Shown here in pieces: positions 36,017 through 40,691 of a stretch of DNA of 40,691 nt. A program made the position numbers and the translations under genes. The notes under the pieces were generated by a model. The model did no database searches and was not told the DNA's origin. It saw only the letters and a list, made by a program, of their open reading frames with translations. The DNA is from a virus: positions 1-40,691 of IMG/VR virus record IMGVR_UViG_3300042507_005616; one strand, given 5' to 3'. Within the stretch, counting starts at the first letter, position 1. Every line of letters begins with the position of its first letter.

Positions 36017-36925
36017 TTAGAGAACCTCGTCGGCTGCGATTTCGACGACCTTCTTCTCTTCCATGCGGGTCGCGCCAAGGCTGGCCACGGTGCGGATTTG
36101 CAGGGCGTGCGACTTGTCGGCGCGGATGTCCACATGCACCTTGCGACCGGCGTCGGCCAATTTGAGGCCGGAGCGGACGTAGGCGAAGCAGGTGCGGACA
36201 CCAGTGCTGGAGTTGTAAGGCAGCAAGGACGACGCCACACGGCGGAACTTGAAGCCAAGGAAGGTGTCGATGTCGCCTTGGACGAGAGCCTTGACGCTGT
36301 TGAAGTCCGCGGAAGTAACTTCCGTGGTGCGAAGCAGGTCTTGGATCTGTTTGGCCGACACAACAAGGACGCGAGGATCGCTGTCGTCCACTTCCGCCTC
36401 GTTGAGGAGGTAAGCGGCTTGGCGAAGTTTCGCAATGGTGAGGCCGCTGTTGGCAGCGACTCCGGTTTCGACGTAATCGACGGCGACCTTCTGGCCGGAG
36501 GGCAAGCTGGTCGGGGTCACGCCGGTTTCGCCCGTGTAGGCGGAACCCAACGCGGCGTCGATGATGGTCTTGTCGCAGGTCCGCATGTAAGCCATCGCGT
36601 GATTGGCGACGGTTTCGGACTGCGGCAGGCTGACTTCGCCAAGGTACTCGGCGTCCCACTCGTCAAAGAGTGTGGCGTGTTCGTACGGAAACGGACGGAG
36701 CCAACGCTTGGCGAGGGCGACGTCTTGGATGGTGGTGTCAGCGGCGCGGCTGGTGATACGGGTCATCTCGACCGCGGCCATCTGGTTGAATGTTTTTTCT
36801 TTGCCGCGAACGGACTCCACGGACACGAACTCACGCAACTTGGAAACCTTCTGCTGAAGGAGGTGTTCCCAGTTGGAGGTGAACTCCGTCGTGAAATACT
36901 GCGGAATTTGAGCAATAGCAGACAT
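36017..36925 (-). CDS. Major capsid protein
   Basis: A 302-residue protein in the typical place between scaffold-like and tail adaptor genes. Features: N-terminal helical arm (FTSNWEHLLQQKVSKLREFV), a middle with RPFPYEHATLFDEWDAEYLG, and DPRVLVVSAKQIQDLLRTTE, then SADFNSVKALVQGDIDTFLG, patterns found in HK97-fold capsids of BPP-1-like podophages. A strong AAAGGAG box eight bases upstream supports high expression; a GGTTTAGTCAAA motif lies 18 bases before the start. Confidence 0.85.
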   Translation of the reverse strand: MSAIAQIPQYFTTEFTSNWEHLLQQKVSKLREFVSVESVRGKEKTFNQMAAVEMTRITSRAADTTIQDVALAKRWLRPFPYEHATLFDEWDAEYLGEVSLPQSETVANHAMAYMRTCDKTIIDAALGSAYTGETGVTPTSLPSGQKVAVDYVETGVAANSGLTIAKLRQAAYLLNEAEVDDSDPRVLVVSAKQIQDLLRTTEVTSADFNSVKALVQGDIDTFLGFKFRRVASSLLPYNSSTGVRTCFAYVRSGLKLADAGRKVHVDIRADKSHALQIRTVASLGATRMEEKKVVEIAADEVL

Positions 36926-36943
36926 AGTTGTTTCTCCTTTGGT

Positions 36944-36955
36944 TTTGACTAAACC
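36944..36955 (-). promoter_or_regulatory. GGTTTAGTCAAA site 10, before the capsid gene
   Basis: Exact 12-mer on the minus strand, 18 bases before the capsid ATG, followed by a strong ribosome binding site. Confidence 0.78.
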
Positions 36956-37119
36956 CGCGTCATGCGGATCTCGTCGGGTTGATTGGTTGTGGTGTCCTCG
37001 GCGCTACCGATTATCCGCGAACGCGGGTCGTCGGCCTTGGGCTGCCGTCGGACAGGCTCCACAAGGAGTTGTCTGCCTAACTGTGGGCGAGAATTGCGCT
37101 GCGCCGGAAGTGGCGCAAG

Positions 37120-37131
37120 GGTTTAGTCAAA
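37120..37131 (+). promoter_or_regulatory. GGTTTAGTCAAA site 11, next to the tRNA-like structure
   Basis: Exact 12-mer on the plus strand, opposite to the capsid site; GTGGCGCAA precedes it. Confidence 0.72.
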
Positions 37132-37140
37132 AAAAGTTCG

Positions 37141-37238
37141 CGGCGGTGGCGGGACTTGCACCCGCTTTGTTACATATTCTTGTGTTATTTTGTAACGTTC
37201 CACTGTCTGGCCGCGTGTCCTTTCCACGCCGCACCGCC
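37141..37238 (-). other. tRNA-like cloverleaf structure
   Basis: On the minus strand GGCGGTG (37238-37232) pairs perfectly with CACCGCC (37148-37142) like an acceptor stem. Just inside are a D-like arm, GCGTG/CACGC around a seven-base loop, and a T-like arm, GCGGG/CCCGC around TGCAAGT, one base off the usual TTCRANY loop. The middle has no 5-7-5 anticodon arm, but a GTTACA...TGTAAC stem with a 16-base loop. Total 98 bases. It may be a degenerate tRNA, a tRNA-like mimic or a small RNA; CGAACTTTTTTT follows and could terminate it. Confidence 0.45.
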
Positions 37239-37241
37239 AAA

Positions 37242-37394
37242 TTATCGTCCGCTCATTGCGATGTAGACAAACGCGAAATTGCTGAACATGTAACCGGCGA
37301 AGACCGCGGCCATTGCATGGTTGCCCTGCATGTAGAAGCCCACCGCCGTCCAAGCGTAGCAGACGGTGCAGATGAGCAGCGGAAGGAAAGTCAC
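37242..37394 (-). CDS. 50-residue two-helix membrane protein
   Basis: Read from GTG at 37394, in a GTGA overlap with the zincin gene. The product, with LPLLICTVCYAWTAVGFYMQ and AMAAVFAGYMFSNFAFVYIA, has two transmembrane helices joined by a short polar turn and ends AMSGR. Small size and twin helices are like a holin or pinholin, but the place among head genes argues against a simple lysis role. Function unknown. Confidence 0.65.
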   Translation of the reverse strand: MTFLPLLICTVCYAWTAVGFYMQGNHAMAAVFAGYMFSNFAFVYIAMSGR

Positions 37395-37681
37395 GAAATG
37401 ACTCCGTCGTTGTGCCGCGCCGCCCACGCGCAGACCTCGGAGGTCAAGCGCCCGATCTCGTCCACCGCCTCCTCGTCGATGTCAAAGAGGCGGGCGTGGA
37501 TCAGTTCATGGGCGATGAGTTCAATGCCGCGGTGGGCGATGGCTTCGGGATGGATGTAGATGGTCCGGTCGTCCTTCACGCACAGGCCGTCGTAGGATTC
37601 GCGGGCGGGCGGTCGCTGGATTTTTACCCGCCACGTTTTGCCGTCGATCGACACGCGCTTGGTGGGGGTGCGGCGGCTCAT
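37391..37681 (-). CDS. Small zinc metallopeptidase (HExxH mini-zincin)
   Basis: A 96-residue protein with ELIAHELIHARLFDIDEEAV: HExxH at H58, E59 and H62, followed by acidic residues E70/E71 that could supply the third ligand. The rest is short beta strands (RTIYIHPEAI). It resembles the minimal zincins of phage-encoded SprT or IrrE-like type. In the head module it might process a structural protein such as the scaffold, or the giant virion protein; this is inference from position. ATGA overlap upstream. Confidence 0.8.
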   Translation of the reverse strand: MSRRTPTKRVSIDGKTWRVKIQRPPARESYDGLCVKDDRTIYIHPEAIAHRGIELIAHELIHARLFDIDEEAVDEIGRLTSEVCAWAARHNDGVIS

Positions 37682-39580: not shown

Positions 39581-39871
39581 TTAGCGGAGGACTTCGGTGG
39601 TTGGACGCTCGACGTCGGCATCTCCGACGACAGGCAGGGAAAGTTTGTAGTCGATGAACAGCAGCACCTCGCGCTGGCCATCGCGCACCGCGGCGGCGAG
39701 CGGATCGAAAGGACGTCCCAGCGTGCGCTCAAAGGCGGGCCGGTTCATGCGGAAATAGGCTTTGAGGTTGTCGAGGACGACCTGTCCATCCTCGCTGGTA
39801 AAACAGCGATGGTAGGCGTTGTTGATGCGCTGGAGGCTTTTGCTGCGCTCCAGTTCTTTGGTGTCGGTCAT
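39581..39871 (-). CDS. Bbp19-like head protein (right copy)
   Basis: A 96-residue protein, the strain variant of the gene at 77-367. It starts MTDTKELERSKSLQRINNAY instead of MTNDKELERS and differs at a few further positions, such as GQVVLDN for GRVVLDN. It overlaps the portal stop by ATGA, as does the left copy. Confidence 0.75.
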   Translation of the reverse strand: MTDTKELERSKSLQRINNAYHRCFTSEDGQVVLDNLKAYFRMNRPAFERTLGRPFDPLAAAVRDGQREVLLFIDYKLSLPVVGDADVERPTTEVLR

Positions 39872-40691
39872 ACGCCGGAGGCTTGATTGAAAAGTTTGCC
39901 CAGCGCGGAATCCTGCTTGACGCTTCCGGCCTTGCCCGCGGCCTCGGCCATCGTGAGCATTTCCTGCTGCTGCTGCATCTTGGCCTGCGCCTCGGCGCGT
40001 GCGGCGCGGGCCTGCTCGACCTCGTCCTCCTCGGCCAGCCAGTCGGCGGGCAAACCGTCGTTGCGGGCCGTCTCGCGGGAGATAACGTCCCACTTGAAGT
40101 TGTCGAGTACCTCCGGTCGCACCTGCGCGATGATCGCGTTGCGCTCCATCGTCCTTGCCAAGGAAAGGTTCTGCATGGCGCGGATGGCCAAGGCCACTTT
40201 GGACACATAGCTGACCTCCGGCTCCGGAATGATCGGCTGGCCCATCTCGTCCATGAGGATCGCGTCGGGCGGCGGGGGCGGGAAATGCCCGTTGCGGATC
40301 AAGATGCCGAAAACCCCGCGGAGCATGGGCGAGAGTAGTTCGGTCGTCTTGCGGGTGAAGCTGGGCGAGAACTGCACCAGCTTTTCACTGGCCCGCTCGG
40401 CCACTTCGGTCGCGGTCATGTTGGCCCGCTCCAGCGAAGCAAACATGCGGAACATGTCCACATGCATCGCGGTGTTGATCGCGGTCGTCTTGCGGTTCTC
40501 GCGCTCCAGCCCGATCTGGTAGTCGCCGCCCTGCGCCCATTCTTGCGGGATGGCGTTGGGTTGGGTCGGGTCGTAATAGGTGACGCCCCCCGATCTCAAA
40601 TCGACTTCCCCTTCGTGCGTAGCGGGCATGAGGAGACGAGGGAAGGCTTTGATTTCCGCGAGGGCGTCGAGTTGCTTGGAAAGGAAATTCA
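39868..40691 (-). CDS. Portal protein, C-terminal part (right contig end)
   Basis: The last 274 codons of a second portal variant, cut by the contig end. Compared with the complete gene at 364-2055 it has, for example, IPQEWAQGG for LPQEWAQGG, NRKTTAINT for NRKTEAINT, and FNQASGV for MNQASGT at the end. All changes keep the frame. Confidence 0.9.
   Translation of the reverse strand, partial: NFLSKQLDALAEIKAFPRLLMPATHEGEVDLRSGGVTYYDPTQPNAIPQEWAQGGDYQIGLERENRKTTAINTAMHVDMFRMFASLERANMTATEVAERASEKLVQFSPSFTRKTTELLSPMLRGVFGILIRNGHFPPPPPDAILMDEMGQPIIPEPEVSYVSKVALAIRAMQNLSLARTMERNAIIAQVRPEVLDNFKWDVISRETARNDGLPADWLAEEDEVEQARAARAEAQAKMQQQQEMLTMAEAAGKAGSVKQDSALGKLFNQASGV

Follow-up and report, generated by a model that had tools for sequence, protein, structure and literature searches.

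The capsid locus and the tRNA-like element

The stretch of viral DNA analyzed here, 40,691 nucleotides of IMG/VR record IMGVR_UViG_3300042507_005616 (the window), carries a major capsid gene on its minus strand (36017 to 36925; phrog_3437, 5.7e-63). Upstream lies an ORF for a hydrophobic protein of 61 amino acids with no Pfam match (37242 to 37427, minus strand). Between the two are the 5' leader of the capsid mRNA, which is conserved and structured (36926 to 37135, minus strand), and, separate from it, a tRNA-like element of 97 nt (37142 to 37238), which lies on the same (minus) strand as the capsid gene and starts 3 nt after the stop codon of the hydrophobic ORF. The initial annotation had placed a cloverleaf of 98 bases at 37141 to 37238; the cloverleaf is there, but its exact span is 97 nt and its strand is the minus strand.

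The minus strand folds into a cloverleaf of -36.3 kcal/mol, compared with a shuffled mean of -25.6 (z = -3.4; 1 of 300 shuffles was as good), and the plus strand of the same segment gave a z of -2.3 in the shuffled-sequence fold test. Five helices are formed. The acceptor-like stem of 7 bp pairs GGCGGTG (37232 to 37238) with CACCGCC (37142 to 37148). It is followed by a D-like arm of 5 bp (GCGTG-GAAAGGA-CACGC, 37213 to 37229), a shrunken 3-bp hairpin at the anticodon position (CCA-GACAG-TGG, 37200 to 37210), a 6-bp GTTACA/TGTAAC arm with a 16-nt A-rich loop (37169 to 37196; loop, 37175 to 37190), and a T-like arm of 5 bp (GCGGG-TGCAAGT-CCCGC, 37149 to 37165). The 7-bp acceptor, D, and T arms are thus in tRNA order. 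The base at position -1 is T (37239), as in 15 of 15 independent 5' flanks. Since the 3-bp hairpin holds the anticodon position, the GTTACA/TGTAAC arm occupies the place of the long variable arm of type II tRNAs. This stem and its loop had been described as replacing the anticodon arm; both exist, but the small hairpin that takes that position had been missed. A 5-bp/7-nt anticodon arm is absent, with a 3-bp/5-nt hairpin instead, in all 32 variants of the element, which cannot decode.

Covariation within the window lineage

Scans of IMG/VR by capsid and by motif yielded about 60 homologous loci with 32 distinct sequences. In the alignment of these variants (A1), 99.9% of 832 cells were paired, compared with 96.4% after shuffling. 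Compensatory double changes occur in five pairs of four helices: the D-like arm (GC to UA in 5 of 32 variants), the mini-hairpin (AU in 18 and GC in 14, converting CCA/TGG to CCG/CGG), the variable-position arm (CG in 16 and UA in 15), and the T-like arm (GC to AU in 4 variants). The covariation score was 0.128 versus 0.058, a value that none of 500 shuffles reached, and sliding the partners destroyed the signal. Pairing of the acceptor-like stem draws on both the 32-variant alignment and a wider family (see below); it is nearly invariant within the window lineage and covaries freely across the family. The ends of the A-rich loop (AAATAAC..AATA) are conserved in the window lineage, in which the T-like loop also occurs as TATCAAGG and TGTCGAGT. 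The whole element scores 113.9 bits with model R1. These substitutions show that the predicted structure is kept by selection on the minus strand. The 7-base acceptor-like, 5-base D-like, and 5-base T-like stems (the last with TGCAAGT) originally read in the right order are borne out by the fold and by the 32 variants, and the covariation whose absence had been named as evidence against them is present.

Database searches gave no name to the element. Rfam 15 returned no match at gathering score over it (the best sub-threshold hit was RAGATH-33, with 12 bits and an E value of 6.9), and the Rfam tRNA model (RF00005) had no match to it at an E value of ≤10. ARAGORN, which had been suggested as a check, reported no tRNA at the element by default and gave only contradictory calls in relaxed runs. 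BLAST of the window element against named phages found no match, nor did a scan of the genome collection with a lineage-specific pattern. The closest named capsids to that of the window phage are from Pelagibacter phages, with an identity of 46% or less. Neither a further copy of the A-rich loop nor a sequence complementary to it was found in the window. Two candidate features within the element were rejected: a short coding ORF from the CATGG form of the 5' end, whose frame is not kept and in which the D-loop length varies by 1 to 3 nt, and a GACA/UGUC loop-loop pairing of the mini-hairpin with the T-loop, which fits only some variants.

The slot upstream of the capsid gene

The capsid leader, of about 200 nt, is a second conserved structured RNA, with double changes in eight pairs among 25 aligned sequences and no Rfam match above threshold. 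The T-run recorded after the element is present just downstream of it on the minus strand (37129 to 37135); it also occurs at loci without the element and therefore belongs to the capsid leader. In many near relatives, the element is absent from this slot. For 35 of 35 more distant capsid relatives (57 to 62% identity) whose sequences reach far enough upstream, ARAGORN places a tRNA-Met gene in this slot, which runs from the preceding stop codon to the capsid leader; in the window clade, the slot contains the element or neither the element nor tRNA-Met. From this occupancy, the location and turnover of the element are those of a phage tRNA gene, yet it cannot function as one in translation. 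The tRNA-Met(CAT) genes lie about 200 to 280 nt upstream of the capsid match (loci L040 to L080), several with a mispaired first acceptor position.

The initial annotation also set the element between two opposed 12-mers (36943 to 36955 and 37120 to 37132); in fact, it lies just outside both. They are two of 14 copies across the window of the 13-mer GGTTTAGTCAAAA (up to 2 mismatches; 0.45 expected), which are located at positions 60, 2560, 4788, 5769, 6613, 7365, 12896, 15485, 20758, 29107, 32306, 36943, 37120, and 39564. Several copies are just upstream of gene starts, and other lineages carry GGATTAGTCGAAA instead. The motif resembles the stoperators or a phage-specific promoter/operator of a temperate phage. 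Near the record ends are two portal-like ORFs of one PHROG, both on the minus strand (39868 to 40629 and 364 to 2055); one is full length, and the other matches only the C-terminal half.

Genomic contexts and mobility

The element was found in at least five gene neighborhoods: after the small hydrophobic ORF upstream of the capsid gene; after a GNAT acetyltransferase gene; after an M15 peptidase (lysin) gene and facing an integrase-like gene; after a zinc-ribbon-like ORF and before an ORF of 94 amino acids; and after a DUF5906 gene and before a dCMP deaminase gene (the zinc-ribbon and integrase labels come from reading translations). The position upstream of the capsid gene emphasized originally is thus correct for the window but incidental, since copies in relatives follow lysin, GNAT, zinc-ribbon-like, or DUF5906 genes, with no capsid gene nearby, and this variety rules out a capsid-specific regulator. 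The protein encoded by the window's capsid gene occurs in 7 of 19 element-bearing records and is missing from the other 12, which include near-40-kb and 68- to 74-kb records; near-identical copies of the element occur in phages with and without this gene.

In the contexts examined, the element always follows its upstream gene in the same orientation, and in many of them it begins 3 to 8 nt from the preceding stop codon. One identical 98-mer has three different flanks, and the 5' and 3' flanks have been recombined with each other in varied combinations. A search of 46 records gave a single strong match per carrier record. Neither an exact empty site with both flanks nor a target-site duplication was found. 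Promoter-like hexamers upstream of the element are context specific; one candidate in the window, TTGTCT-18-GATAAT just upstream, was discarded, as other contexts lack it and it coincides with the stop codon. The element has spread between unrelated phages.

A wider family in phages and bacterial genomes

Caulobacter phage DMCA and Pseudanabaena phage Pan3 came to light through a weak BLAST match, and model R1 matches them with 48 and 44 bits, respectively; their closing stems are different, and each is complementary. The D-arm motif GCGGCGTGGANGGACACGC was found in at least 119 stretches of bacterial genomes, and its gapped form was found in at least 120 in viral contigs. Downstream of the motif, written as GCGGCGTGGA-N-GGACACGC, bacterial genomes and phages have a T-arm-like hairpin and a 7-bp closing stem that covaries. 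Among the matches listed, the loop ATCAAGC occurred downstream of 103 of 202 D-arm motifs, compared with 5 upstream; 95 of these 103 sites have a closing stem with 6 or 7 of 7 pairs, in 59 distinct stems, and the mean pairing was 6.63 of 7, compared with 4.26 ± 0.10 with shuffled partners. This analysis relied only on the D-arm motif and the loop letters ATCAAGC. An alignment of 34 representatives, including the window lineage, had double changes in 12 of 17 pairs and a covariation score of 0.578 versus 0.113; as these representatives were chosen for complementarity, the shuffle analysis of ATCAAGC sites and closing stems is the fair test. The D arm is invariant across the family set because it served as the search pattern.

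The window element shares this architecture: its D-like arm is the signature hairpin of the family (GCGTGGA..GGACACGC), and a variable interior is followed by a T-like hairpin abutting the covarying closing stem. It scores 31.5 bits with shell model R2, which was built with the window element included and is unreliable for whole-genome surveys with long inserts. The interior, tightly conserved within the window lineage, is hypervariable in the family (30 to 247 nt; 123 similarity clusters in 133 elements among the matches listed). The closing stem is extended by at least 3 pairs in 46 of 133 elements among the matches listed, with up to 16 further pairs. In Burkholderiales-type loci, including L185, L187, L215, and L333, the outward extension is a CCATCAN-type inverted repeat. 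U at -1 is universal only in the window lineage (54 of 133 in the family, among the matches listed). The acceptor stem is followed by a variable base, with no encoded CCA. The family consensus has GG in the D-like loop and UCAA in the T-like loop, and we infer that these loops are compatible with a tRNA elbow.

Several members have tRNAs 6 to 31 nt away on the same strand, and some are inside phage tRNA clusters (L331, L192, and L346). Bacterial copies examined lie near prophage-type RecT/exonuclease, HNH, integrase, or helicase genes, and the exact motif occurs in 4 of 398 Pseudomonadota genomes, with one copy each. Named members are in Caulobacter phage DMCA, Pseudanabaena phage Pan3, Komagataeibacter phage phiKX1, phiKX2, and AP1, none of which has an annotated feature under the element. 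Six loci with family members had no Rfam match except a tRNA-like sequence nested in the variable interior of the Pan3 element (L178:1557-1622; Rfam tRNA, 34.9 bits). Further tRNA-like elements combine the same acceptor with other interiors (L135/L143/L144, L140/L159, L141/L148, L139/L145/L147/L152, L169-L172/L176, L171, and L167), several of them directly after a stop codon. No paper containing the family core sequences was found in the open-access literature; the family may have been noticed earlier under another name without an Rfam accession, e.g., Burkholderiales-1 of Weinberg 2010 (PMC2864571).

Comparison with known RNAs

By their defining tests, the element is not a tmRNA, C4 RNA, tRNA-Other, or phage tRNA. 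It shares with tmRNA a tRNA-type upper half (acceptor, D, and T regions) and the substitution of other RNA for the anticodon half; unlike tmRNA, it lacks the G3-U70 alanine identity, has a D-like hairpin, and has an interior that is not conserved between lineages. The tmRNA mode of ARAGORN found no tmRNA, for which a tRNA-like domain with tag ORF and pseudoknots would be expected. C4 antisense RNA of phages P1 and P7 (RF01695) is a phage small RNA, as the element probably is; RF01695 matched neither the window nor any of six loci that carry family members. Passages in PMC11143913 state that RNase P processes tmRNA and phage C4 RNA and cite Hartmann 1995 for the C4 RNA precursor as an RNase P substrate. 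The pseudo-tRNA tRNA-Other of Bacillus cereus, which adjoins a genomic island and was proposed to be a structural part of a regulatory RNA (PMC3399842), offers a parallel in the idea of a recruited tRNA-like element, but it is a single former tRNA, whereas the element family has a hypervariable interior.

Phage tRNAs resemble the element in being single copy, operon sense, and shuffled between loci; unlike them, it has no anticodon arm and no ARAGORN or Rfam call. The PeSL cassettes of T4-type phages are also short, structured, and intergenic, with reassorting flanks. PeSLs consist of a promoter and a stem-loop and are present in several copies per genome, whereas the element gives a single strong match per record and its upstream promoter-like hexamers differ with context.

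Proposed function and alternatives

The element is a predicted RNA gene, one lineage of a large unannotated family of virus RNAs. Retention of the outer tRNA frame, with the anticodon half swapped in each lineage, suggests tRNA-like RNAs with a role other than translation. Judged from sequence comparison, the element is fairly probably a trans-acting small RNA in a tRNA shell whose lower half would serve as a lineage-specific recognition module. Such a phage small-RNA gene would join the upper half of a tRNA to a lower half that differs between lineages and replaces the anticodon arm, in the window lineage the 3-bp/5-nt hairpin and the 6-bp arm with its A-rich loop. It would be cotranscribed with late genes and then excised from the mRNA. 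In the window lineage, host tRNA maturation enzymes would probably make the cuts, RNase P between U-1 and G1, followed by 3' trimming; U-1, G1, and the 12-bp acceptor/T stack are compatible with this route, which is plausible. About a third of family members have extended closing stems, which are unsuited to cleavage by RNase P at the 7-bp boundary; this route is not supported for them, so that different lineages may mature the RNA in different ways. Given the variable base after the stem and the lack of an encoded CCA, charging is unlikely to be a general function. A stable RNA of about 97 nt would persist and act in trans, with the lower half most likely recognizing a host-specific partner, either an RNA or a tRNA-binding or tRNA-cutting protein.

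Alternatively, the element could act in cis as punctuation, attracting RNase P/Z to cleave the polycistronic mRNA between the upstream and next genes, as with organelle t-elements and tRNA punctuation. The sense orientation close behind stop codons, the U at -1, and the tRNA-Met gene in the same slot of relatives fit this account. It is nevertheless unlikely: there is one copy per genome, beside different genes in different phages, the slot is empty of the element in many near relatives, and punctuation would not need the A-rich loop and mini-hairpin conserved within the lineage.

Mobility could instead reflect a recombination cassette at the DNA level, with transposon-like ends or a PeSL-type shuffling boundary, in which the structure acts as DNA or hitchhikes. 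Sharp ends at the 7-bp inverted repeat, identical elements in unrelated, reassorted flanks, and transfer between phage types would be expected of one. A tRNA-like topology with internal covarying helices would not, nor would a single copy that, in every context examined, reads in the same direction as the upstream gene. Moreover, G-U is the commonest non-Watson-Crick pair in the selected family stems (with a mild selection bias), and neither a target-site duplication nor an exact empty site was found. We consider such a cassette quite unlikely.

The element might also be a decoy or resistant tRNA mimic that, lacking an anticodon loop, occupies a tRNA-cutting defense enzyme or tRNA-sensing factor of the host. 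Phage tRNAs have been proposed to evade such nucleases (PMC10264068), and an upper tRNA half kept over a replaced anticodon half, with an interior as hypervariable as in an arms race, would suit this role, but no anticodon-like loop common to the interiors was seen, and we regard a decoy as very unlikely.

A decayed or odd decoding tRNA is rejected as highly improbable: although a real phage tRNA-Leu(UAA) (L166 and L173 to L175) matches the element in acceptor and T stem and R1 scores tRNA-Leu at 36 bits, the acceptor match was preselected by the search pattern, acceptors are unrelated across the wider family, the Rfam tRNA model and all 32 variants argue against it as described above, compensatory changes preserve the helices, the A-rich loop has been kept, and the element has passed between unrelated phages. 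Of the options listed in the initial annotation, the tRNA mimic and the processed small RNA fit the covariation, the tRNA-like topology, and the conserved U-1; the decayed tRNA does not.

For the family as a whole, the trans-acting reading extends, more tentatively, to a widespread and unrecognized class of phage RNA in which the tRNA upper half would be a maturation and recognition shell for a hypervariable effector acting in trans on the host, possibly in defense or counterdefense. If this is right, current annotation overlooks a structured RNA family present in many phages and prophages, and phages use the tRNA frame for a purpose other than decoding, a point relevant to the open question of why phages have tRNA-type genes. 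The presence of members in cultured phages (DMCA, phiKX1, phiKX2, Pan3, and AP1) makes the family directly testable.
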